From: Lichtheimia corymbifera B2541
Lineage: Eukaryota > Mucoromycota > Mucoromycetes > Mucorales > Lichtheimiaceae
Reading direction: 5' to 3'
Length of the DNA stretch: 64,000 nucleotides
Assembly: GCA_000697475.1 (NCBI GenBank)
Contig: JNEU01000987.1
Location: 202,093-266,092 of the forward strand
The position numbers and the translations under genes are program-made. The notes below the pieces were generated by a model. It was not told the DNA's origin. It made no database searches and was given only the letters and a program-made list of their open reading frames with translations. Shown here piece after piece: positions 6,810 through 64,000 of the stretch. The stretch's first letter is position 1. Each line of letters starts with the position of its first letter.

Positions 6810-7211
6810 ATGATGCCTCATGTTGCTCTGGTCGTCTTTTTGGCGTTGGTCCTCTTGATGGCTAGCACTAGTCATGCTATTCCAACAAGTGCGAAGCGTG
6901 GTGACGGCGATGGCTCTGAATTCCATGGTCAAGGAAAACGTGATGTGCAAGATACATGCCCTAAACCCGATCGTATTCTTCAAACCCTGTGGGATGATCT
7001 ATCCTATGGCCCGGATGACTGGGGCTGTGAAAAAGGATATTGCTGGTCAAGATGTGCTGGTGCAGGCAGAGCTGCTAAGAGCTTCATTAACCTTTACGAA
7101 TGGTGCTACACAACCAAAGGAAGCTCGCAAGATCGAAACTATGTTACCTGTGACAAAAAAGAAGATTGTTGCTCAACCTGGAGCTGTGGAGGACCATGTG
7201 CAGCTATCTAA
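6810..7211 (+). CDS. Small secreted 10-cysteine protein (module 1)
   Basis: A 133-aa intronless precursor; I cannot assign a known family. Residues 1-23 form a signal peptide (VALVVFLALVLLMASTSHA). Dibasic KR pairs follow at 29-30 and 43-44, so a Kex2-type protease probably removes a short propeptide. The mature part of about 89 aa has ten cysteines, suggesting five disulfides, around the block GYCWSRCAG...YEWCYTTKG and ending CSTWSCGGPCAAI. An in-frame upstream ATG at 6726 precedes the TATA box, so I chose 6810. The protein closely matches that at 8843-9268. Likely roles are antimicrobial activity or host/microbe interaction, but that is inference only. Single-copy TATA promoter and extracellular product fit inducible expression. 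Confidence 0.85.
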   Translation: MMPHVALVVFLALVLLMASTSHAIPTSAKRGDGDGSEFHGQGKRDVQDTCPKPDRILQTLWDDLSYGPDDWGCEKGYCWSRCAGAGRAAKSFINLYEWCYTTKGSSQDRNYVTCDKKEDCCSTWSCGGPCAAI

Positions 7212-8786: not shown

Positions 8787-8842
8787 AGGGTCCCCCATTC
8801 ATTAACTGCAATACTATCATCAATCCATTCTCCCTTTCAAAA

Positions 8843-9268
8843 ATGTTGCCTCGTCTTGCTTCTTTGATTTCTTGTGCTGCCTTGGTCCTCTTGATGGCTA
8901 ATACAAGCAATGCTACCCCTTCCAAGCAGACGCCTGGTGTTGGTGATCGTGCTACTGGCGTTCTAGTCTCGGAAGGCGAACTCACAAAACGGGATGGACC
9001 TGGAACATGCCCTGCGCCTGACGCCGCTCTTAAAGCCTTTTGGGATGATATTAGCTACGGTCCGGGTGACTACGGTTGTCATAAAGGATATTGCTGGTCC
9101 AGATGCGCAGGTGGTGCCAGAATCTTTGGATCGGTCGCACGCGATGGCATCTATGAATGGTGTTATACAACCAAAGGACGTTCGCAAGACAGAGGTTATG
9201 TCACATGTTCGAAGAAGGAGGATTGCTGTAACACATGGAGTTGTGCAGGACCATGTGCTGCCTTTTAA
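8843..9268 (+). CDS. Small secreted 10-cysteine protein (module 2)
   Basis: A 141-aa intronless precursor, paralogous to the protein at 6810-7211. Residues 1-24 are a signal peptide; a longer propeptide runs to the dibasic site LTKR at 47-50; the mature domain then starts DGPGTCPAPD. Ten cysteines occupy the same positions as in the first paralogue, with GYCWSRCAGG, YEWCYTTKG and CCNTWSCAGPCAAF. The signal peptide and propeptide junction (MLPR, LTKRD) are closest to the repeat-peptide gene at 12787, linking the two gene types. Function unknown; secreted, probably heavily disulfide bonded. Confidence 0.85.
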   Translation: MLPRLASLISCAALVLLMANTSNATPSKQTPGVGDRATGVLVSEGELTKRDGPGTCPAPDAALKAFWDDISYGPGDYGCHKGYCWSRCAGGARIFGSVARDGIYEWCYTTKGRSQDRGYVTCSKKEDCCNTWSCAGPCAAF

Positions 9269-12709: not shown

Positions 12710-12786
12710 AGGCCACAGGATTCATCCACAAGAAAGTCATTCCTATCTTATCATCAACTATTACATAATATCTCCTTTTTCTAAAA

Positions 12787-13212
12787 ATGTTGCCCCGTGC
12801 TCCTTTGATCTCCTATGCGGCGTTGGTCCTCTTTACAGCCAACACCATCAACGCTGCCCCAATAAATCAAGAGCTTGATTTCGGCGATATCGAGGGTATC
12901 AACGAATCCTTTGATGGTGATCCATTTGGCCCTGGTAGCTTCAACATTGATGATCCTCTTGGCATAGACGGCGATATTAGCGTTTATGATGGTGACCCGG
13001 AACTCTTTGGAGATTTCACAAAACGTGATGAGGATAGTATCATTGGTGCTGGCGGCCACATTGGAAACCCTTTAGGCGACGTCACAAAACGCGATGAGGA
13101 TAGCATCGTTCATGCTGGCGGTGGCATTGGAAACCCTTTAGGCGACGTCACAAAACGCGATGAGGATAGTATCATTCATGCTGGCGGTGGCATTCGAAAC
13201 ACGTATAGATAG
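12787..13212 (+). CDS. Secreted precursor with tandem Kex2-processed repeat peptides
   Basis: A 141-aa intronless precursor. Residues 1-23 are a signal peptide (LISYAALVLFTANTINA) closely related to that of the 10-cysteine protein at 8843. An acidic, Gly/Asp-rich propeptide follows. Three KRDEDSI repeats then begin at KR positions 79, 101 and 123. Cleavage after each KR would release the 20-residue peptides DEDSIIGAGGHIGNPLGDVT and DEDSIVHAGGGIGNPLGDVT, and a shorter diverged last one ending IRNTYR. There are no cysteines. The architecture is that of fungal Kex2-processed repeat proteins (alpha-factor-like pheromone or cyclic-peptide precursors). The actual product and role are unknown. No modification gene such as a DUF3328/UstY oxidase was seen nearby. 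Confidence 0.85.
   Translation: MLPRAPLISYAALVLFTANTINAAPINQELDFGDIEGINESFDGDPFGPGSFNIDDPLGIDGDISVYDGDPELFGDFTKRDEDSIIGAGGHIGNPLGDVTKRDEDSIVHAGGGIGNPLGDVTKRDEDSIIHAGGGIRNTYR
13021..13194 (+). repeat. 66-bp coding tandem repeat (2.6 units)
   Basis: Units start at 13021, 13087 and 13153 with AAACGYGATGAGGATAG. The first two units are near identical over 66 bp and the third diverges after GGCATTCGAAAC. Each unit encodes KR plus a 20-residue peptide of the precursor gene. Confidence 0.9.
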
Positions 13213-21990: not shown

Positions 21991-22571
21991 TGATGTATAT
22001 GGATTTCAATGGATGATGCCATCACCGCAATAACTGGTTGAGCTGCGATGGAAAATGACCAAGAAAGAGCAGGATGGAAAAGGAAGCATATCAGCAGCGA
22101 TTACAATGGCTCTTTTCAATTGGCATATCGATTATGATGGATGGATGCGTTTCAAGTGCAGTGATGAGAAAGAAATCCTGGGATGTTGCTTTGGTTACCT
22201 TCAGTGTCGTCAGCAGGATGTGAGCGATGGATCATGCCACATGGATACAGTTGGTGTCCCATTATCCGAAGGAGAACCTGTTACACACACACACAATGAA
22301 ACCCTTTACACTTTATGTTAGCTGCCCTCATTCATGTTTGCTGAATAATAAACACTTGTAATATAAATTGGATACGCCCATTTTGGTGACGCAACAGTAT
22401 ATGAACATCAACTTTAACATATCAGCCAAGGAAATACAATACTTTAATCAGCAATGAATGTTTAAAAATGGTGATCAGGTTGTTATGTGTGGTGGTATGG
22501 ATGGTTTAACTAATGATCCAGGGGATATGTAAGTGAAAGGACCAATCGTGTACAGTGTGCAAATCATGTAC
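21991..22571. other. Intergenic; start of the 3.5-kb duplicated unit
   Basis: No gene recognised. From about 22260 (CTGTTACACAC...CTTTACACTTTATGTTAGC) the DNA repeats at about 25795, marking the left edge of the segmental duplication. Confidence 0.5.
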
Positions 22572-22775
22572 TTACCGGCCGAGTACGTCAAGCTTGCACT
22601 CTTCGTTCAAAACGCAAATGCATCCTCCACCCTTACGACAGTAACCAGCGAATGCATCATCGTAGTCTACGCACCATCTATTGCACTGCTTGTCGTCAAC
22701 ACACTTGAAGGCGGTAGCAACATTGAAGAGAAGGGCAAAGAGCAAAAAGGAGGCGAGGACAGTCTTGTTCAACAT
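22572..22775 (-). CDS. Defensin-like secreted peptide (CS-alpha-beta pattern), paralogue 1
   Basis: A 67-aa precursor with a 22-residue signal peptide (MLNKTVLASFLLFALLFNVA...). The mature part shows the cysteine-stabilised alpha-beta signature: C-xxx-C in CNRWC, G-x-C in GYC and C-x-C in CIC, with one extra Cys near the end (EEC). This pattern is shared by plant, invertebrate and fungal (plectasin-like) defensins; membrane or cell-wall-precursor targeting is typical of the fold, but is not shown here. The stop TAA overlaps a strong donor (GGTAAGTA). Splicing to the acceptor CATTAG would still end the protein after LGR, so the reading is the same either way. Paralogues lie at 26122 and 29895. 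The TATA box is 56 nt upstream. Confidence 0.82.
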   Translation of the reverse strand: MLNKTVLASFLLFALLFNVATAFKCVDDKQCNRWCVDYDDAFAGYCRKGGGCICVLNEECKLDVLGR

Positions 22776-22817
22776 GTTTGAATTGGAAAAGATGGGATGG
22801 TTATTGACCGTTGTTTT

Positions 22818-22837
22818 GACGACGACGTGCTTTTATA
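22818..22837 (-). promoter_or_regulatory. Conserved TATA/initiator block of defensin-like gene 1
   Basis: On the minus strand TATAAAAGCACGTCGTCGTC lies 43-62 nt before the ATG. The identical 20 bases precede the other two defensin-like genes, at 26361-26380 and 30131-30150, while the surrounding DNA is more diverged. Confidence 0.75.
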
Positions 22838-22875
22838 GCCATCCTGCTGGATGGTGGACACACTGACAACACACA

Positions 22876-24120
22876 TGCGTGTGACGAGCAACCCCCCTCT
22901 GTGGATGATTTATTTCTGGAGATTCATCATCCAGACAACGTTTGAATGCAAAGCCTCGGGGGCTGAGTCGTTATGCTCTCTTCATTACAAAATACAGTTT
23001 ACAGTGTTCAAGTAGCACACTGATCATTCACTCAATATACCAACGTTTATGCGAGGCATGAGCATGAAGTCTTTCCCGATATAGAGAATTTACCCTTAAC
23101 TATGTTACATCAAATCCCGCATCAGCCCCCTCGTCGTTGAACATGTCAACCATGACACCGCAATGAAATGCGTATCACCATCGCATTGAGTTTGAATATG
23201 CCGCAACATGGAGATACCAATTATACTATGAATAGGGCTGTTGAGGAGGAGGAGGCTGATGCTAATGCGTAAATGGCAAGGTCATCTGGTGGCGGATATA
23301 CTATCGGATGAACCCCACCCGTTACATATAGGCAGCAGCATCATACATAAGATGATGCCATCTCTCGTAATTCAGTCTATAAAGTGAAACGTAGTAGCCA
23401 TATATAGCTTTGAATGATGGTTGCCATGGCAGCGTACAAGACATGTCCAAAAGATCGGTATTTAGTTGATCAGTTTTGCCAGGACGTCGCATCATGACCA
23501 CCACAAGAGCGATATAATTATTCAGGAGAGGATGGCAAAGACGACACCATTATTATTTCCCATGCACAGGATAAAATGAGTTTGTGTGGTAACACAAAGT
23601 GGTGTGGAGCGTGCATATCGTTGTTGGATTGTCACATGAAATCATACATGTATGGCGTTTTCTCGTTCATCATCTTTGACACCACCGTCCCATTCCTTCT
23701 ACATATCACTTGGACAAAGTGTAAACTACGATGGATCATATCGCAATGGCTATACAAGCTATTATTGGCGAGGTTCATCAATGCTATTATCCAATCCTAC
23801 TGATACGAGCTCCACAACGCATTATTTGTCGAAGAGATTCAGATTGTGGATGTATGTATGGAAAGCAATAGCAGTTGAACATCGATCAATAAACTTTGTA
23901 TATGAATAAAATCACTCTTTGGACAGCACCATGACTCCTTAGTTAGATACAATGCTGTATACGTTTTATTGATAGACGAATGGATTTGTGGATTCCAGGA
24001 CATGTAGTACGTACAGGGGATGTTGGTAGCTACTGCAGCGGTCGAACATGGCTTTTAAGTTTCTTGGTATAAGTATTACTGTACTTGAATCCATACGATG
24101 CTTGTCACATTACCTAGTCA
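22876..24120. other. Intergenic within duplication unit 1
   Basis: About 1.2 kb without a supported gene. 23079-23215 is the best conserved non-coding block of the duplication (near identical to 26637-26773), and 23280-23460 resembles 26830-26990. Confidence 0.5.
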
Positions 24121-24459
24121 TTATTCGCAATATTGGGTGCATTTGGGATATTCTTCGTCAGCCGAGTCGTAACAAGTAGCTTCGCACTTGCTTAATTCGT
24201 TATTTGGATCGTCTGGGTAAGTATCTCCTGCTGGATCGCAGCGGTTTCTTGCACAGATGTTCTCGCTGCCACAAAAGACCTTTAGACAATCTTTGAGGTA
24301 TTTATCATTTTCTTGAGCACATCCCTTGAGACACATATTTACAATATGTCGTGCAGTGTCTCGCTTTTGTACCGCAGGTGATTGGGCATTGGCAGCCAGC
24401 GCGACAAGGGACCATGATGCAACAAGGCCAGCAATAACAAAAGATGAGTTGAATAGCAT
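24121..24459 (-). CDS. Secreted double CX3C-module protein, paralogue 1
   Basis: A 112-aa intronless precursor. Signal peptide about 1-23 (MLFNSSFVIAGLVASWSLVALAANA), then QSPAVQKR with a dibasic site that could be cut by Kex2. The mature part has two cysteine modules: CLKGC-x10-CLKVFC and, at the C-terminus, CEATC-x10-CTQYC. Four further cysteines lie in the linker. The C-terminal CX3C-x10-CX3C pattern matches the alpha-hairpinin arrangement (two helices joined by two disulfides) known from plant antimicrobial peptides, so a helical-hairpin fold is a reasonable guess. No family name recognised. It is nearly the same as the protein at 27606 in the signal peptide, but the mature part has diverged strongly. 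Confidence 0.82.
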   Translation of the reverse strand: MLFNSSFVIAGLVASWSLVALAANAQSPAVQKRDTARHIVNMCLKGCAQENDKYLKDCLKVFCGSENICARNRCDPAGDTYPDDPNNELSKCEATCYDSADEEYPKCTQYCE

Positions 24460-24524
24460 TGGATTGTGTATTTGCTAATGAAGAAAGAGATATAGTAAAG
24501 AAGAAAGAATGGAAAGCCTTCGAT

Positions 24525-24531
24525 TTTATAC
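24525..24531 (-). promoter_or_regulatory. TATA box of double CX3C gene 1
   Basis: TATAAAA on the minus strand, about 66 nt before the ATG, in the context CGAAACGTATAAAATCGAAG. The duplicate at 28017-28023 has the matching box. Confidence 0.6.
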
Positions 24532-24839
24532 GTTTCGTTTCATGTAGGGGGGAGAAGAAGCATAGTATAGGATCAACTTGATCGAAACGCCATCTCACAT
24601 TTTTCCCAGGAGAGGGCTGAACTATATGCACGCCATGCATCACCTCCTCGATCGCTCGCGTTTCTAGAAACATTTTTTCACGGTATTAGTAGAACTATGG
24701 TGTAGTATCATGTCATCCATTGGATAAAGAAGTGTATGTCTGATGATATGGCTGTGTTAGGATGATTTATGTATAAATGCTGTCATTATGTTTAGAAGGA
24801 TTACTATTATAATAAAGAGGGTTCCTAGCTACTTGGTAA

Positions 24840-25690
24840 TGGCAAGTTGCAGCAGGTCAGAAACTAGATGATGGTCCATTGCTTTTTGGTGCGATAAGTC
24901 TTGTGATTCAGGGACCAAAAGAGTTACGAAGATTGAGCGTCCAACCATACGCAATATGCCGTTGCCATTTGCAGAGGTGTGATAGCGAACAGATCCCCCC
25001 CTGTAAACTAAGCCATGTTGCTGCTTCTTGCACTCGACAAGCCAGATCCTTTTGCTCTCCCGTATAGGTCAATCAACCATGGTGTCCCAATAGCATCACT
25101 CTTTCAGATAACCAATCCAGCAATTGCTTGATGACTGACAAGAAGAGTCTCCATGGGATGCAGTATGCAAAGTATCCACTTTCAATTCAGTACGCCATAT
25201 GCTGCTGGCCATCCCTCAATGTCGCTTGTAGAAGCCGCATGAATTCCGAGTCTTGATCTTCCACCCATACGCAGCATAAGCACATTCCTGCTATCGAGGG
25301 ATGTTTCGATACCGTTGCCCATTTGTATGTTTCCCCAAGACGGTTGCTGAAGATGGATCACAGTCAAGCAGAGTGCAACGCATAAACCACCACTGCGCTC
25401 CTTGCATCCCTCGGTCCAGTGTTTCTCCAAAGACGTGATAGTGCAGCGAACGTCGTATCGATAGTCAGGATACATAATTGGTCGTAGGATACGCATTTTG
25501 CTCGTCGTTATCAGAAACATGAGCAAGGTCGTAAAGCTCTCGTTTCTCCTCGTCATTCAAATGGTGTCGACCATCACCACCATTGCTGTTGTTGCTCCTG
25601 TCAAGAACCATTTGCAACATGGCACATATACATTTATCAGTTGCCACTTCCTTGTTCAAATGCAGGTGATGGAGTTACCTTGAAGAGGGC
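24840..25690 (-). pseudogene. Decayed gene of unknown family, copy 1
   Basis: Frames on the minus strand keep recognisable protein-like blocks shared with 28335-29640: a block like RLFLSxIKQxLDWLSERV, TSLEKHWTE/TSLKKHRTT, and RELYDLAHVSDND versus RELYNHPDLHLFHVAEND. No single open path links them, and the two copies need different frame changes. I do not recognise the family. It could be a multi-exon gene still working in one copy, but stops and shifts argue for decay. Confidence 0.5.
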
Positions 25691-26121
25691 CATTAGGAAA
25701 GGGCATGTGCTGCAGCATGCAAGTACCGTTTGAAGGAAGAGAGAAAAGAACCCTGAGATGAAATTATGTAAGTCGCGATACCAATATCCGAAGGAGATCC
25801 TGTTACACACGCATTGAACTCTTTACACTTTATGTTAGCTACCCTCATTCACGATAATGATAATGGCCTCATTCATTTTTGATGAATAATAAACACTTGT
25901 AATATAAATTGGATACACCCATTTTGGTGATACAGCAATATATGAACATCAATTTTTACATATCAGCCAAGGAAATGCAATACTTCTTTAATCAGCAACA
26001 TATATCCAATGACTATCAAGCGGCTGTTATGTGGGGTGGTGTAGATAGCTTATCTAATGATCCAAAAAGTACACATGTAAGAGGATTGGCAAGTCATGTT
26101 CAGGACGTAATCATATATTAC

Positions 26122-26316
26122 TTACCATACGTCAACGCACTCGTCGTTCTTAACGCAGATGCATCCTCCACTTTTAAGACAGTAACCAGAAACGGCATCA
26201 CCATAGTTGACGCACCATGTATTACATTGCTCGTCCCTAACACACTTGAAGGCGGTAGCAACATTGAAGAGAAGGGCAAAGAGCAAAAAGGTGGCGAGGA
26301 CGGTCTTGTTCAACAT
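26122..26316 (-). CDS. Defensin-like secreted peptide (CS-alpha-beta pattern), paralogue 2
   Basis: A 64-aa precursor; its signal peptide is identical to paralogue 1 except at one position. The mature part keeps CNTWC, SGYC and CIC in the CS-alpha-beta spacing and the additional Cys near the end (DEC). Changes compared with paralogue 1 fall mostly in loop residues, as expected for fast-evolving defence peptides. I chose ATG 26316 because the longer frame upstream includes the TATA box. The TAA lies in a donor-like GGTAAGTAA; splicing to the matching acceptor would give a stop at the junction. Confidence 0.82.
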   Translation of the reverse strand: MLNKTVLATFLLFALLFNVATAFKCVRDEQCNTWCVNYGDAVSGYCLKSGGCICVKNDECVDVW

Positions 26317-26360
26317 GGTTGGATTGCAAAAGATAGGATGGTTATCTATCGTGTTGTCTT

Positions 26361-26380
26361 GACGACGACGTGCTTTTATA
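26361..26380 (-). promoter_or_regulatory. Conserved TATA/initiator block of defensin-like gene 2
   Basis: Same 20-base block TATAAAAGCACGTCGTCGTC on the minus strand, 45-64 nt before the ATG at 26316. Confidence 0.75.
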
Positions 26381-26526
26381 CCCATTGCTGGAGGATGGTG
26401 CGTATTGACAACACAACACCATATGCTTGGGACAAGCAACAAGCTCCGCGTGTACCTCTTTGGATGATGATTTATTTCGGGAGCTTCATTATCCAGACAA
26501 CGTCGCCCTTTTGAATGCAAAGCCAC

Positions 26527-27605
26527 GGGGCCTAGTCGTTATGCTCTCTTCATGACATTGACGTTGAAGCAGCAGCAGCAGCTTTCTCTCTCTCGGTGCC
26601 GACATTTACGTGCGACATGCGCATGCAGCCTTTCCCGATATAGAGAATTTACCCTTAACTATGTTACATCAAATCCCGCATCAGCCCCCTCGTCGTTGAA
26701 CATGTCAACCATGACACCGCAATGAAATGCGTATCACCATCGCATTGAGTTTGAATATGCCGCAACATGGAGACATCAATTATGCTATGAATAGGGTTGT
26801 TGAGGAGGAGGAGGCTGATGCTAATACTCAAATAGTAAGGTATCGGGTCAACCCACCATCCATTACATTGGTAGGATCATGGTGCCATCTCTCGTAATTC
26901 AATATATGCCCAAAGTAAAATGCAGTCATAAATAGCTCTGAATGATGGTTGCCATTACAGCGTACATACAAAATAAAAATTATATTACGCCGATGGCTGG
27001 TACCTTTGGCAGGACGTTGCATCATGAACGGGATATTCAATCATCATTATCCTAAGGATGGATACGACTTTTGTGGATATGAAGACCAACTACCAATTTG
27101 AACATGTGCTCCTTTATTCCTGGTATTATTGTGGTTTCCCATGCACAGAAGGAAAATGAATAACCAATATCTTTAAGGTGGTATAAAGGGGTGTACGTTT
27201 TGGGTGAGTGCAATGCGATACCAGGATGAACGAAAACAGGGGCGGAGTGTGGTTGCTGGAAACTTCAAAGGCTGATACGACCATCACATCGCATTACTTG
27301 TCATCTAGATCTCAGTTTTGGATACTATATGAAAAGCAATAGCATTTGAGCATCGATCAATAAACTTCGCTTATGAATCAAAGCATTTTTTCGAAAGCCT
27401 CATATCCCTTAGTTAGATTCATTTGTGTATGGCTAAAATACGTTTTATTACTACAAGAGGCGATCTGTGGATTTCTGGACATGTAGTATTACAAGGGATA
27501 TCTTTGCAGCTATTACTGCAGCGATCCATCATTGGCCTCTGCCAAGTTTTCTCGGTAAGTATTACTTGAACCCATACTGTGCTCGATACAATATATACCT
27601 ACCCA
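26527..27605. other. Intergenic within duplication unit 2
   Basis: No supported gene. A CAG/GCA-repeat of five units lies near 26566-26580. Conserved with 22900-24120 of unit 1. Confidence 0.5.
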
Positions 27606-27950
27606 TCATTCGCAATTCTTGGAGCATTTGGTATAGAGTTCATCAGCCACTTTTTGACAAGCGACTTCGCATTTGTTTGATTTATCGATTACACTGCCCT
27701 CTGGATCAGCAGGGTCTGTTGGATCTACACAGTCATTATCTTGACATGTCTTGGTGCCGCCACAAAAGAGTTGTAGACATTCTCTGAGGTCTTGTTTATT
27801 TTGCTTACTACATGTCGTGTTACATGCAGTTTTGATGTGTTCTGCAGTGGCTCGCTTTTGGACAGCTGGTGATTGGACATTGGCAGCAAGCGCGACAAGG
27901 GACCATGATGCAACAAGGCCAGCAATAACAAAAGATGACTTGAATAGCAT
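27606..27950 (-). CDS. Secreted double CX3C-module protein, paralogue 2
   Basis: A 114-aa precursor with a signal peptide almost identical to the one at 24121, followed by the same QSPAVQKR processing site. Modules: CNTTC-x10-CLQLFC and C-terminal CEVAC-x10-CSKNC. Linker cysteines at CGGTKTC and NDC are kept, but most other residues differ from the tandem duplicate, so the mature part evolves faster than the signal peptide. ATG 27950 follows the TATA box at 28017-28023. Same likely helical-hairpin fold; function unknown. Confidence 0.82.
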   Translation of the reverse strand: MLFKSSFVIAGLVASWSLVALAANVQSPAVQKRATAEHIKTACNTTCSKQNKQDLRECLQLFCGGTKTCQDNDCVDPTDPADPEGSVIDKSNKCEVACQKVADELYTKCSKNCE

Positions 27951-28016
27951 TGGATTGTGTATTTGGTAATAAAGAAAGAGTAGATATAGTAAAGAATAAA
28001 GAATGAAAGCCTTCCG

Positions 28017-28023
28017 TTTTATA
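28017..28023 (-). promoter_or_regulatory. TATA box of double CX3C gene 2
   Basis: TATAAAA on the minus strand about 67 nt before the ATG at 27950, matching the box at 24525-24531 of the duplicate. Confidence 0.6.
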
Positions 28024-28334
28024 CATTTCGTTTCATGCAGGGGGAGAGGAAGCACAGCATAGGATCAAACGGCAGTCGAAACGCCTTCTCAGGAGATGAC
28101 TGAACTATATGCACGCCGTACATGTAACCTCCTCGATCGCTCGTATTTGTAGAAATTTACCTTAGTGCTATTTGTAGAGCTCTATGATGTGGCGTCGTGT
28201 CATCCATTGAATAAACATGTATGTATGATGATATGGCTGTTATATACTTAAGATTGAAGAATGGTTTATTTATACAGGGTGCCATGGCAACGTTACTATT
28301 AAAGAGGGGGGTTGCTAGCTATTCAGTAATGGTA

Positions 28335-29640
28335 TTTTGCAGCAGCTCGGAAGCGGGCATGATGGTTCATCGTCTTTAATTGGAGGGTCTGCCATGTCTT
28401 GCGATTCACGGAACGAAAGAGCTGGTTAGAATGAAAGCGCCCAGCCATATATGCGATATCCTGTTGCCATCCGCCGAGGTGTCATAGTGAACGGGATCAC
28501 CATCGTGTTGCTTCTTGAGTCCGACAACCAAATCCTTTTTGCTTTCCTGGATACTTCAATCGACCATGGTTCCCAATAGTATCACCCTTTCAGATAACCA
28601 ATCCAGTCGTTGTTTGATGGCTGACAAGAAGAGTCTCCCCCACAAGATTGGGATGCGGCACACAAAAGGAATAGCCACGTGTATGAGACCCAATACGCCG
28701 TATATATAACCCTCCGACTGCCTGCAGATGCGAGATGAACGATTGAAACTTGATGTAGATGAATAAAAACGACTGTGCATCCCACGATATCAACGCCCAA
28801 TTCATATTACGATGCTGCTCTAAAAACATGCGTTACTTTTCGGCTGCTGAATTATAACCACCTTTCCACTTACCAATGAACAAGATCGTAATGAGAATGT
28901 GTGTTGGATGCCATCCGCAACTTCGCGTTCTGTAATCATTGTTGCTGCTCGTATAAAATCTCCCTCAAATAGCTGATAATGCTCTTGTAAAGTCGTATGC
29001 GATCCATGCTCCTTGGTCTTCATCCACGCCCTGTATGACCACGCTCGTGCTATAGAATGATGCTTGGATATCTTGCCTATCATTGCCCATGTGAGCATTT
29101 CCACACAATCGCTGAAGATGGTCAAGCATACCATAATAACGAGTGTTACATCCACCACTGTACATCCTGCTTTCTGTGGTTCGGTGTTTCTTCAAAGACG
29201 TGATAATGCACAGGACCCCTTTAGCTTCAACGTCGAATCGGTATCCAGCAACCCTCGTCAGCTGTATTATAGACATTCTAGTCGTGTCACACATGTCGTT
29301 TTCAGCAACATGGAAAAGATGAAGATCGGGATGGTTGTAGAGCTCGCGTTGTCCTCGTCAATCATAGCTTCGTCATGCCGACTGCCACCAGACTGTTCCT
29401 TCCGCTGCCAAGCACCATTCACTGTAGCAACCCGGCATCAGTATTTCCTCAAGAGTCATTTGCTTGTTGTCGATGCGAAGTAATGGAGTCAACTTGAACG
29501 AAGACAATGAGTAAAGGTTGGGTAATTCCTTTTGAGAACAAGAAACTTGGTTGGTAGAATGAAAGGAGAGAGAACAATGCTGCCCGCCACCACCGGAATC
29601 AATTCCGAGAGCACGTGTCAACTTGGATACATCTCCCACC
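28335..29640 (-). pseudogene. Decayed gene of unknown family, copy 2
   Basis: Homologue of 24840-25690. Protein-like stretches include a frame starting MGDVSKLTRALGIDSGGGG near 29639, and one reading RELYNHPDLHLFHVAEND near 29300-29355 that continues into TSLKKHRTTESRMYSGG. A one-base loss relative to copy 1, near DEDNA/RELY, breaks the frame. Family not recognised. Confidence 0.5.
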
Positions 29641-29894
29641 CATCCTTCCCAACCTGGTCACTGCCATATCCCGTATCCCCAACATACTATTAGAGAACTC
29701 CCATGCATGTAGACACTGTATATAATAAGTCATAAAGCTGCAAAGACCAATGTAATCCTTTAATCCAGCATAAATTTCAAATGATGATCTTCTTGTTATG
29801 TGTGGTATGGATAGCCTTGATCGATAATGGCATCTAATTATCCAGAGAATGAGATGATTTACAAGCCATATACAGGATGCATCCATGCACTTAC

Positions 29895-30089
29895 TTATCG
29901 GTTGTCATAGTTGCACTTTTCCAGATGACAATGGCATCCTCCAGAAATAAGACAGAAACCAGAGACGGCATCATCATAGTTCTTGCACCATTCGTCACAT
30001 TGCTCGTTACTAACACACCTGAAGGCGGTAGCAATATTGAAGAGGAGGGCAAAGAGCAAAAAGGAGGCGAGAACAGTCTTGTTCAACAT
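29895..30089 (-). CDS. Defensin-like secreted peptide (CS-alpha-beta pattern), paralogue 3
   Basis: A 64-aa precursor with the same signal peptide (one Val to Ile change). CDEWC, SGFC and CHC keep the CS-alpha-beta spacing, and a further Cys follows (EKC). It is the most divergent of the three mature sequences. It lies about 3.77 kb upstream of paralogue 2 in the third, partial duplication unit. Stop TAA precedes GTAAGTG, a probable donor for a 3'-UTR intron. Downstream unit members beyond the defensin are not conserved. Confidence 0.82.
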   Translation of the reverse strand: MLNKTVLASFLLFALLFNIATAFRCVSNEQCDEWCKNYDDAVSGFCLISGGCHCHLEKCNYDNR

Positions 30090-30130
30090 GACTGGATTGC
30101 AAAATATGGATGACTATCCACCGTTGTCTT

Positions 30131-30150
30131 GACGACGACGTGCTTTTATA
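30131..30150 (-). promoter_or_regulatory. Conserved TATA/initiator block of defensin-like gene 3
   Basis: Third copy of TATAAAAGCACGTCGTCGTC on the minus strand, 42-61 nt before the ATG at 30089. Confidence 0.75.
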
Positions 30151-30998
30151 CCTTGTACCTGATGATGCTGACAACGCACATGGTTCTCGATGTGCGCGGA
30201 TTTGTTTCTGGAGATTGCCATAACACAGCATTAAAGGTTGTGTACGAGGAGGCTAAGTCAATTTACCATTTGACGTTCCAGCTCCATGGAGACAAACCCA
30301 GTTGATATGTGGTACACGCCTGTTCCTAATTTGGAGAATTCAACTTTCATCACCAGCCATATCTATAGCACGCTGCTGATGACACCACAAGACGCCATCG
30401 TGCGCCATTGAGCTTGAGACAGCATTATAGCAACAATGACAGCATCGTTGACATAGAGATCACAAATACAACATGATACTCTATATATTTAGAGTGGTTG
30501 CTGATGCGATTGTAGCTGGTAATACGGCAATGTGGCTCAGCGGATATACCTTTGCTCCTTCGTGCATGTGCTTTATTGGGACATATTTTGCATCACTCAG
30601 CTTTCATTGCATCGGCTTCATGTGGTGGGAAGCAACTATTCATAGCTCGGGTAATCATTGCGACCCTATATCCTTCATAATCGCTGTTACATGCAGAAGG
30701 TATTGTGCATCCACGAATTGTTATTTATTGCATCCTTCAATTTCATCCAGTTCACGTAGCTACCTTCAAGGTAGTTTTGAATAGCCCTATCAGCGGAGCA
30801 TTATTTCCATGGCATAATAGGCCGTTTGGAGCGCATAACAACATTTGAGTTTATATTCATAGCAGAAGGATTTATGAATCAATAGCCATGATACATGTAC
30901 AAAGTTGGCAGCTAATATGATGATCACTATTTACTGGTGTATCATGCAAACCAGGTTTTCGGTCACTTCATATGCTTGAATTTATGTGGCCTGGTCAT
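30151..30998. other. Intergenic region
   Basis: About 850 bp. An open frame at 30473-30784 (+) has no signal, motif or paralogue that I can support. Nothing else seen. Confidence 0.45.
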
Positions 30999-31316
30999 TC
31001 ATGCTTGGGGCTGTTCCGGCGGATATTGCTGGTCGCACTTGTCCATGCATTTCTGCCCAGTTTCTCGAACCGACTCATCGCAGGTCGATTGACATTTGGT
31101 CCGTTTTTCGGGATATAAATCTCCCATTACCGATGGACGATGTCCTCCTTGACAAAGCGGGTCGTCACAAAACATCCTCAAGCAGTCGCAGAGCAAATCT
31201 TCTTTCCAACAAGCTTCGTAGCACTTTTGCTTTTCTTTATCCACTTGATCAATGGCAAGTACTGTAAGGGACCAGCAGGCAAAAAAACCGATAATAATCG
31301 ATGGCTTAAACAACAT
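30999..31316 (-). CDS. Secreted double CX3C-module protein, paralogue 3
   Basis: A 105-aa intronless precursor. Signal peptide MLFKPSIIIGFFACWSLTVLA. Modules: CYEAC-x8-CLRMFC, which holds an additional CDC variation, and CQSTC-x10-CMDKC. The tail QQYPPEQPQA is proline/glutamine rich. It has no KR propeptide, unlike paralogues 1 and 2. Same family by signal peptide and cysteine spacing; function unknown. Confidence 0.78.
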   Translation of the reverse strand: MLFKPSIIIGFFACWSLTVLAIDQVDKEKQKCYEACWKEDLLCDCLRMFCDDPLCQGGHRPSVMGDLYPEKRTKCQSTCDESVRETGQKCMDKCDQQYPPEQPQA

Positions 31317-31816
31317 GATTGCGGATCCGTGGTAAAGAAAGAGAGGATAAGCGACTACAACACGTAGAAAGATGGATTAACAAACCGTGCCTTTTTGTCT
31401 ACAATTGTCTGGTATAGGGGGGTCACTATACTCGTATATCCTTTGCCGTGCTAATGGACTTGGGTTAAACGCCACTTGACACTTTCAGGGGCATTGTTTG
31501 GGCAAGCTGCAGTAGCCAAATGTCCGCAGCCTCTCCATGGACCTTCTCAATATGTACAACAAACTGAACAAGGATCATGGTGTGTCGCATCAATGACATA
31601 CCATGGATAACGCTCTTTGAAAGAGTACCCCTCTTTTTTTGTCGCTTTCGGTGTCAATGAAACGATGCATATTGCTACAACATATCCTAGCAAATACCAT
31701 CATCATTTTTATTGTTATGAAATTGCAATCACCAGCATGTATTTCCTATCGGGTAAACAATTCGCTCATTTCAACCCTCGCTTATATCGCCTGATTTAGA
31801 GGGAATTTGCTGGTTG
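31317..31816. other. Intergenic region
   Basis: About 500 bp between two family members; promoter of the 30999 gene. Nothing else recognised. Confidence 0.45.
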
Positions 31817-32161
31817 CTAATATGGGGGTGGGTTGTTGCATTCTTCTTGGCACTTTGTTATAGGATCAATGGCCTTCTTGAAGCAGTCTTTTTCACATGG
31901 AGTGTATACGCCATCAGTTGGGTCATAAAACTCAAACGAAACGGGGACAGTTTTATCGCTCTTACAAACGTCTCGGACGCACTTCTCTAACTCTTCAAAA
32001 TCGTAGAACCTATTACAATGCTTGGAGCATTGCATTTTCTCTGCCGCCGCAAGTTCGTCGGTGGACTGACCGTTCTCTGGAGAAATCGGGTCGGTGGATC
32101 CAGATGCAGTAAAGGACGATACGGCAATAAGAAACACAATAGCAGATGATTTGAATAACAT
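31817..32161 (-). CDS. Secreted double CX3C-module protein, paralogue 4
   Basis: A 114-aa intronless precursor. Signal peptide MLFKSSAIVFLIAVSSFTASG; a Ser/Glu-rich spacer; then CSKHC-x11-CVRDVC and C-terminal CEKDC-x10-CQEEC, ending NNPPPY. This copy has the plainest form of the double module, with eight cysteines and no linker cysteines. I chose the ATG at 32161, which starts the shared MLFKSS signal peptide; an earlier in-frame codon is not supported. Confidence 0.8.
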   Translation of the reverse strand: MLFKSSAIVFLIAVSSFTASGSTDPISPENGQSTDELAAAEKMQCSKHCNRFYDFEELEKCVRDVCKSDKTVPVSFEFYDPTDGVYTPCEKDCFKKAIDPITKCQEECNNPPPY

Positions 32162-32666
32162 TTTGATTTGGATTATGTGATAAAGGAAGTAGAGAGATAG
32201 AGAAATCACAACGTCTTTAAACAAGTGGACCTTTCATATACAATTCAGATGCGCTGATTGATAGGTCTCTTTAATCCTCCTTACATGCGAGTCAACTTTG
32301 ATTAAACGCCATTCGCACTTTCAGGGGTATCGCTTGTCTGAGTTGTGTGACCCATACCTTATAACTTTTGCCCTCGGTCTTTTAGAAGACGTTGTAAATG
32401 ATGTAGTAGGATTGTGTGTTTATCTTCGGAGGGTGTACCTGATGCATTCAGCTTTTGAAGGCAAGGGATATCCTACCACGAAATATTACGATGAAATAGC
32501 AATTGCAATAGTGCTTTATTTTATCACACTACCATAATTTCATCTACCATTATCTTCAAATGAATGATCATTTAATATCATTTGCTTCACCGGCGATTTG
32601 ATTCCATCGATCGTATTCGTAAGTACCTTGTATGACGGCACCACTTGTATTTCTCTTGCGATGATT
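32162..32666. other. Intergenic region
   Basis: About 500 bp, AT-rich. The stretch TTGATTAAACGCCATTCGCACTTTCAGGGG near 32296 resembles GGGTTAAACGCCACTTGACACTTTCAGGGG near 31461, in both cases upstream of a family member, so promoters are shared here too. Confidence 0.5.
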
Positions 32667-33044
32667 TTACAAGTTTGTGGTCGGATTTTGGGTTTTTGGC
32701 TGCGATGTCTTTTTCATGCAACTATCATAGCACGAATACATCATCGGATTATTCGATCCGTAGCAGTTTGACTCACACAAAGTCATAGTATCTTCGCCAT
32801 TTCCAGCCGTGAGTGGTTTGTCAGTCGGAAGTGGAGGTCCTGATGGGTCCAAGTCGCTGTTGCATTTGTTTTTTAGACAAGCCTTGAGAGAAGCCATGCC
32901 TTTGCTATCACAAGCATCTATACATGGATCTGAAGCAACATGTTGCTGTGGTTCTCCTCTTTCACGTAGCTGGGCATTATCTGCTAGTACCATGAGCGAC
33001 CATGCAGCCAAAATCACAAGGAGGGATGACTTGAGTAACATCAT
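32667..33044 (-). CDS. Secreted double CX3C-module protein, paralogue 5
   Basis: A 125-aa intronless precursor starting MMLLKSS (two adjacent ATG codons). Signal peptide to about residue 21, a spacer with QLRERG, then CIDAC-x10-CLKNKC, a proline-rich linker (SGPPLPTDKP) and CESNC-x10-CYDSC, ending in a Lys/Thr/Pro tail. It belongs with its neighbours by signal peptide and cysteine spacing; the mature sequence has little other identity. Confidence 0.8.
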   Translation of the reverse strand: MMLLKSSLLVILAAWSLMVLADNAQLRERGEPQQHVASDPCIDACDSKGMASLKACLKNKCNSDLDPSGPPLPTDKPLTAGNGEDTMTLCESNCYGSNNPMMYSCYDSCMKKTSQPKTQNPTTNL

Positions 33045-33336
33045 TGGATCAAAAAGTGAGGAAGAAATATGACAGTGTGCAAACGAACGTGAACCAGCGG
33101 CGGCTTTTTTTATGCAGGAGATGCTGAGTGTATATATCTTTATGCAGGAGGAGGTGACTGTCTTTGATCCGCCATACCAAATTTTGTATCACCACCGCAT
33201 ACATTCAGGGGCACTACTACTACTGCGAGCAGTAAAACCCGCCGATCATATCCTTTATACAACCTTTGCATTTCAACATCACGCCGTCCTTGTCATATAT
33301 AAATGTTTTAATTTGATATGTATACATCGCAACTAA

Positions 33337-33840
33337 CTACGCATCCTTCTGTGTCTTGCAATCTTCTTTACATCCATCAAGTTGAGTTTTAATGGTTTGG
33401 TCGCATTCATCGTAGCATGATCCTTTCTTTGGGTCACAGAGCTTTTTGCATGATTCCGTAAGACTATCCACAATCACTGCACATCCTGATATGCATTCAC
33501 CATACGACTTGCTGTCCGCATTAGGATTCTTCACGTTCTTCCCCATGGAACCAATCTCAGGCTGTTGTTGGTCTTGTGTAGCACCACCGGTTGCCTCAGG
33601 TAGTTGCTGTTGTTCCGTGGTATCCTCGGCAGTAGTGGCACCTGTATCAGCAGATGGTGGCTGTCTGTCATTGGTAGATCCTCCTTCTGCAACAGCAGGT
33701 GCACTCTCGGATGCCTTATTGCTTTCTCCAAGTGCTTCTTTGACGATTGCATCAAATTGATCAGCGACTGTAGGAGTGCTAAGCAACAGCAATGCAAAAA
33801 TTGTGGCAAAAGCGAGCTTGAATAATATATGTGTGTGCAT
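33337..33840 (-). CDS. Secreted double CX3C-module protein with acidic low-complexity spacer, paralogue 6
   Basis: A 167-aa intronless precursor, the longest in the array. Signal peptide about 1-27 (ILFKLAFATIFALLLLSTPTVA). A spacer of about 80 residues rich in Ala, Thr, Gln and Glu follows. The C-terminal part holds CISGC-x10-CKKLC and CYDEC-x10-CKEDC. Here all four pairs are exact CX3C, and no linker Cys remains. The expanded spacer may be glycosylated. Family placement is by signal peptide type, module spacing and position at the end of the cluster. Confidence 0.78.
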   Translation of the reverse strand: MHTHILFKLAFATIFALLLLSTPTVADQFDAIVKEALGESNKASESAPAVAEGGSTNDRQPPSADTGATTAEDTTEQQQLPEATGGATQDQQQPEIGSMGKNVKNPNADSKSYGECISGCAVIVDSLTESCKKLCDPKKGSCYDECDQTIKTQLDGCKEDCKTQKDA

Positions 33841-63537: not shown

Positions 63538-64000
63538 TCATTGTGACTCCAGAGAATCGGACACCTCAGTGGACGAAGAACCCAAAGCCAAATCAGAAAC
63601 TTGAGAGTGTGTCTCCTTGTTGATGCGATAGAAGGTTTCAAAAATCTCTCTTGAGGACCATCCACCATGGCATACAACATCATCCACCGAAGCACCTGCT
63701 TGGAGAGCTCTTGTGGCACCCAAAGCTCTAGCCTTGACACTTGCTGAATTAGGCAAAAGATCCATAACCTTGCGTATATGCTTGCCAATACGTTGAGCGG
63801 TGATAGCATGAAGAGGATTATTGTGACGACGGATGAGAGCATTAAGCGTTTCACCAGGGATCACAGGATGAGTTCGACGACAAGGAATATGGGCAATGCG
63901 TTGATGATAAGCGAGAAATGCACGAACAGGACAAAGGAGTGGAGATGGATGTTGATTGATGACAACAGAGCGTGTGATGCGTGAGCCATGACGCCGTTCT
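63538..64000 (-). CDS. Tyrosine recombinase, C-terminal part (DIRS-like element); continues beyond the window
   Basis: The frame is open from the window end to TGA/TAG at 63538-63540 and encodes the C-terminal 153 residues or so. Visible: RRHGSRITRSVVINQHPSPL, LCPVRAFLAYHQRI, then ARALGATRALQAGASVDDV, GGWSSREIFETFYR. The Arg of KARALG fits the second catalytic Arg, Trp of GGW the His/Trp position, and Tyr of ETFYR the nucleophile. The spacing and the GxWSSxxxFExFY ending are typical of DIRS-type recombinases as I recall them; a Crypton is the alternative. The N-terminus and any reverse transcriptase lie outside the window. The adjacent inverted repeats are what a DIRS end would have. Intact as far as visible, so it may be recent. 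Confidence 0.82.
   Translation of the reverse strand, partial: ERRHGSRITRSVVINQHPSPLLCPVRAFLAYHQRIAHIPCRRTHPVIPGETLNALIRRHNNPLHAITAQRIGKHIRKVMDLLPNSASVKARALGATRALQAGASVDDVVCHGGWSSREIFETFYRINKETHSQVSDLALGSSSTEVSDSLESQ

Follow-up and report, generated by a model that had tools for sequence, protein, structure and literature searches.

Defensin-type and double CX3C-type cysteine-rich proteins share a lineage-specific array in Lichtheimia corymbifera

The stretch of DNA analysed here (the window) comprises 64,000 nucleotides of contig JNEU01000987.1 from Lichtheimia corymbifera B2541, positions 202,093 to 266,092 of the forward strand; the assembly (GCA_000697475.1) has 432 contigs and totals 35 Mb. 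Between window positions 22572 and 33840, nine open reading frames (ORFs) on the minus strand encode cysteine-rich proteins of two kinds, designated D (defensin type) and C (double CX3C type), in the order D-C-D-C-D-C-C-C-C by rising coordinates (Table 1). A hydrophobic segment, judged by eye, stands at the start of every one of the nine, suggesting that the proteins are secreted. A six-frame regular-expression scan of the window found six quadruple-CX3C-type matches, with an expression composed only after the C genes had been seen, and three matches to the cysteine-stabilised alpha-beta (CS-alpha-beta) framework; 100 dinucleotide shuffles gave none. For comparison, the scan was applied to two contigs that carry genes of the type of licosin, a characterised defensin of the same genus (PMC13199095). 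The first 60 kb of contig C423 and the first 20 kb of contig C306 contained no quadruple-CX3C match near the licosin-type genes, and five and two CS-alpha-beta matches, respectively, equal to the numbers of licosin-type ORFs there. An earlier note on this DNA had described nine genes on one strand, three defensin-like genes interleaved with and then followed by genes of the second kind, and two distinct disulfide frameworks at one locus in an early-diverging fungus. That description holds in all three respects. The array is a real, lineage-specific, mixed two-framework locus.

Table 1. Genes and other features of the array, in window coordinates
Feature	Position	Strand	Description
D1	22572..22775	-	67 amino acids, CS-alpha-beta (defensin-type), 7 Cys; candidate splice donor GTAAGT overlaps stop codon
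C1	24121..24459	-	112 amino acids, 10 Cys, CX3C-X10-CX4C then CX3C-X10-CX3C; KR = residues 32-33
D2	26122..26316	-	64 amino acids, CS-alpha-beta, 7 Cys
C2	27606..27950	-	114 amino acids, 10 Cys, tandem-duplicate partner of C1
D3	29895..30089	-	64 amino acids, CS-alpha-beta, 7 Cys, more distant D copy
C3	30999..31316	-	105 amino acids, Cys-rich, first half irregular
C4	31817..32161	-	114 amino acids, 8 Cys
C5	32667..33044	-	125 amino acids, 8 Cys
C6	33337..33840	-	167 amino acids, long acidic hydrophilic linker, then 2 x (CX3C-X10-CX3C)
Duplicated unit 1 (D1 + C1)	22259..25152	-	sequence identity to unit 2
Duplicated unit 2 (D2 + C2)	25781..28638	-	sequence identity to unit 1
X remnant between units	25182..25620	-	degenerate, apparently coding-derived

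In a multiple alignment, all eight D-type sequences have the framework C...CX3C...C...CXC with a glycine at position -2 of the fourth cysteine, the framework and glycine rule of the CS-alpha-beta superfamily (PMC5234102). The predicted secondary structure of D2 consists of a helix at residues 28-38 and strands at 43-46 and 52-55. The D genes combine the CS-alpha-beta framework with a predicted helix-strand-strand fold. An odd seventh cysteine is retained in all eight sequences, suggesting that the D proteins are disulfide-linked dimers. The pairwise D2/D3 alignment is gapless and matches 6 of 8 cysteine columns; all seven cysteines align in the multiple alignment. The D proteins are acidic (net charge -1 to -3), and in them the first framework cysteine is at position 25; a cut near residue 22, the assumed site, would leave no space for a propeptide. 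They scored 13.2, 18.0 and 13.3 bits against Pfam Gamma-thionin (PF00304), below its curated cut-off of 25.1, and no match to Defensin_2 (PF01097) was listed. Named matches in protein searches came from Lichtheimia only; the searches need shared 5-residue words, and absence elsewhere is weak. With D2 as the query, no further D copy was found in the genome beyond the array among the best candidates, which were the ones scored. The D family thus appears to be a branch of a known fold, found in these searches within Lichtheimia only.

The second half of the C proteins, after a spacer, is CX3C-X10-CX3C in all six genes. The first half is CX3C-X10/11-CX4C in C1, C2, C4 and C5, CX3C-X10-CX3C in C6 and irregular in C3; its second cysteine pair is CX4C in C1-C5 and CX3C only in C6. 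The six 'double-CX3C' genes of the earlier note do contain two CX3C-type modules, but the label ignores the CX4C pair in five of them and the irregular half of C3. The mature proteins have 10 cysteines in C1-C3 and 8 in C4-C6. C1-C5 are joined to each other by BLAST (C3 and C1, 39% over residues 1-96, E 1.3e-4; C2 and C4, E 8e-4). C6 gave no BLAST match to them at E 1 and a profile comparison probability of 10.6% in hhalign; what it has in common with them is the cysteine framework, its place in the array and a signal peptide that starts alike. With C2-C6 as queries, and the best candidates scored, the only genomic relative found outside the array was a sequence at C163 that matches C6 at 27% (E 0.045).

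In profile searches, D stayed under the Gamma-thionin cut-off, and C had no significant match in Pfam, NCBIfam or PDB. The C1-C5 profile had only two PDB matches, both non-significant (E 0.75 and 1.1): vicilin peptides of walnut with the spacing CX3C-X11/12-CX3C. The first-half profile had a single one, a kappa-KTx channel toxin, likewise non-significant (aligned over 8 positions, E 0.88); the whole-family and second-half profiles had no PDB match at E 10. Plant alpha-hairpinins and scorpion kappa-KTx toxins share with C the CX3C-Xn-CX3C spacing, present in the second half of all six proteins. However, C has two modules per short chain, and no significant sequence similarity to the alpha-hairpinins was found (best E 0.75). 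Plant alpha-hairpinin precursors may contain many modules (PMC7191063). We regard both resemblances as leads, not as membership. Structure prediction gave the helix-strand-strand fold for D and, for C2, a model with a mean predicted local distance difference test score (pLDDT) of 63.9. In this best AlphaFold2 model of C2, two long helices, unlike the hairpin systems above, span residues 28-62 and 87-113, with block means of 46 to 87 there. Residues typical of turns, NNP and DP among them, occur in several X10 segments, which would fit short hairpins. In one case, the L. ornata protein P0013, two cysteines of C6 are missing, precisely its fourth and fifth, the innermost pair of a nested ladder; this paired loss hints at nested ladder disulfides in one long helical hairpin. 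Internal duplication of the C modules was considered and rejected, as half-versus-half scores did not exceed those of cysteine-fixed shuffles at 5% in any of the six genes (C6 was best, 73/1000). The two half-profiles aligned in hhalign with a probability of 46%, which shared cysteine spacing can explain.

The D1-C1 unit recurs as D2-C2 at a distance of about 3.5 kb, a tandem duplication with blocks of 76.5% and 72.3% identity and a poorly alignable stretch between the blocks. The similarity of D3 to the other D genes extends over about 220 bases, at 82-86%. Co-duplication of D and C, as claimed earlier, is thus borne out. However, the duplicated segment includes promoters and intergenic DNA, so the duplication was segmental and by itself does not demonstrate functional pairing. 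Signal-peptide codons are 97% identical in DNA between the units, for D and for C. The mature parts of C1 and C2 are 67.4% identical, compared with 75-85% in three flank segments (mismatches 89/273 versus 212/964, p 0.0004). This flank count omits 23439-23800, a gappy stretch of 45% identity, and with it counted the flanks have about 30% mismatches versus 33% in mature C1/C2, so that the difference nearly vanishes. Mature and flank mismatches of D1/D2 do not differ significantly (30/132 versus 156/923, p 0.11), and the intervals of the ratio of nonsynonymous to synonymous substitution rates span 1 in all four pairs tested. A conserved signal and a diverging mature part are clear in the two youngest copies; positive selection on the mature parts is suggested only. 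As for the X remnant between the units, 59 bases are repeated at 76% at 29152-29210 and 147 bases at 77% at G000:C187:95070-95216, and no Pfam family was found above cut-off in the frames tested.

A TATAWAD motif lies within 150 nt upstream of five of the nine genes (D1-D3, C1 and C2), at -61 to -73, compared with 11% of random 150-nt stretches. The strong TATA boxes that most genes were said to have are therefore present in these five and absent from C3-C6. Likewise, all coding frames are unbroken, but the statement that all genes are intronless is doubtful for D. GTAAGT occurs at or just past the stop codon in all three D genes and GGATMATTAG ends about 60-72 nt beyond (by eye), together marking a candidate 3' intron. 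In L. ornata, the annotation of protein P0001 extends further at the C-terminus, and by eye the added end looks like the 25468-25620 part of the X remnant, suggesting that a longer intron was read in that gene model. An eighth D cysteine from a second exon was rejected, since this longer model adds no cysteine.

Homologues of array proteins were named in L. ornata and L. hyalospora, with C6 homologues in both, and the word-based protein searches named no relative outside Lichtheimia, again a weak absence. D1 is 93% identical to O0I10_012355 of L. ornata. In that species, O0I10_009783 (D) and O0I10_009781 (C6) have near-adjacent locus tags and lie on contigs of equal size (194,885 bases); in L. 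hyalospora, K492DRAFT_206952 (D) and K492DRAFT_187048 (C6) also lie on contigs of equal size (152,780 bases), equal size being taken as identity of the contig. C4-, C5- and C6-like proteins share a contig size of 5,231 bases, and O0I10_012355, the second L. ornata D, sits on a different contig (54,800). Some matches come from short contigs that might be transcripts; they are not counted here as expression. The putative linkage of D and C6 in two relatives lends modest support to a D-C pairing conserved across species.

Comparison with known systems sets the D family apart. Plant defensins (SPE10, PvD1, VrD2), considered here together with scorpion toxins, contain 8 cysteines and most are cationic, whereas D has 7 and is acidic. 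Licosin, which is antibacterial and blocks hKv1.3 (PMC13199095), resembles D in its CS-alpha-beta framework, in being secreted and in its genus. By eye, and unlike D, which has no evident propeptide, it carries one that ends in KR, and its mature peptide is cationic with 6 cysteines. An hhalign comparison of D and licosin aligned 7 signal-peptide columns only (probability 15%), although such short peptides may conceal homology. Two ORFs on contig C306 are exact matches to both of the primers published for licosin of L. corymbifera. In the stretches read, there are seven licosin-type ORFs, five at G000:C423:15827-38568 and two at G000:C306:3251-5420; six are above the Defensin_2 cut-off and the seventh, C423:17726-18010, is below it. 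About 6 kb from the former group are three nearly identical ORFs (G000:C423:1745-9528), and the one tested matched Pfam Thaumatin (E 2.3e-45). Among fungal defensin-like genes, tandem ones have been described from Mortierella and duplicated ones from Rhizopus; the Mucorales members form family fDEF6, without a propeptide (PMC4165938). This family (rhimisins, rhidesins and mucisin) is like D in being defensin-like and from Mucorales and in its duplicated genes, and it lacks a propeptide, as D may. By description, its nine tabled Mucorales members differ from D in charge (+0.5 to +13.4 versus -1 to -3). The word Lichtheimia is absent from the available text of PMC4165938, and a term search of the L. 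corymbifera genome paper (PMC4133162) gave no occurrence of 'defensin'. No description of a mixed D/C locus was found in the literature searched, which lies mostly outside subscription papers. The earlier statement that no locus of such composition is described in early-diverging fungi is consistent with this result as regards the mixture, but tandem defensin-like genes had already been published (PMC4165938).

Elsewhere in the window, a second group of apparently secreted proteins is encoded on the plus strand at 6810-7208, 8837-9265 and 12781-13209. The first two products are cysteine-rich paralogues (62% identical), and the third shares the N-terminal region only (63% over about 40 residues, E 0.0099); no Pfam family was found above cut-off for any of the three. 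A minus-strand frame at 63541-63999 runs past the window end and matches Phage_integrase below threshold (E 0.038); it may belong to a tyrosine-recombinase element.

We propose, with a probability of about 0.5, that the array is a locus specific to this lineage, encoding secreted peptides stabilised by disulfides, most likely chemical weapons or shields against microbial competitors. We infer a defence or host-interaction role from the fold, the divergence pattern and the characterised defensin licosin. The proteins would act outside the cell after removal of the signal, with additional cleavage at the dibasic KR in C1 and C2. The D peptides, probably functioning as covalent dimers given their odd cysteine, would bind a surface target such as a wall precursor, a lipid or a channel through the CS-alpha-beta fold, and the C proteins may bind as helical hairpins, acting for example on membranes or as inhibitors of foreign proteases. 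D and C may act jointly, but this explanation does not require it.

D and C may indeed be merely co-located, in a nursery of secreted proteins where tandem duplication carried both along and their roles are separate. This denies only joint function, is compatible with a defensive role and has even odds in our judgement. It agrees with the inclusion of promoters and intergenic DNA in the duplicated unit, with the lack of a D partner between C4-C6 and with another secreted cysteine-rich pair about 13-16 kb away on the opposite strand, but not readily with D and C6 homologues still sharing equal-sized contigs in two relatives. Conversely, C proteins could be partners or modulators of D or licosin, as Sca, a small secreted cysteine-rich anionic protein of Penicillium digitatum that is not itself antimicrobial, alters the activity of the antifungal protein AfpB (PMC7711571). 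The adjacency and shared duplication of D and C, and the likeness of C to Sca, by description only, speak for such a role, yet D and C are both acidic and simple charge pairing with D fails; we consider it unlikely.

The proteins could also be non-toxic, disulfide-rich coat components on the surface or wall of hyphae or spores. Small, acidic, apparently secreted and expanded proteins would suit a coat, as would the long hydrophilic linker in C6, and surface-active small secreted cysteine-rich proteins have been reported in fungi (PMC8596622). However, the CS-alpha-beta fold belongs mostly to defence peptides and toxins, as the matches of D also show, and mature C1/C2 are more diverged than the three alignable flank segments, making a coat function improbable. 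The array could also encode factors acting on animal hosts, for example licosin-like channel blockers. The block of hKv1.3 by licosin (PMC13199095) and the one PDB match of the C first-half profile, to a channel toxin, point this way. That match is not significant, however, and the lysine pair that licosin needs (34 and 35 of the mature peptide) has no counterpart, by eye, in D2 and D3, so that we regard host action as very unlikely. The most far-reaching reading is a venom-like, two-scaffold fungal locus, in which acidic seven-cysteine CS-alpha-beta covalent dimers and an undescribed double helical-hairpin family would be co-made, evolve fast and act jointly on one outside target; this seems quite unlikely.

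Earlier work in Mucorales described duplicated defensin-like genes of one family (PMC4165938), and here an acidic, odd-cysteine defensin-type family lies amid a second framework family without a match to the curated families of the libraries searched. The genus can cause mucormycosis, and a defensin that is antibacterial and blocks Kv1.3 is already known from it. Provided that the peptides are made, the array would offer a compact set to test if fungi use two disulfide scaffolds in combination, and stable scaffolds for peptides could be drawn from it.

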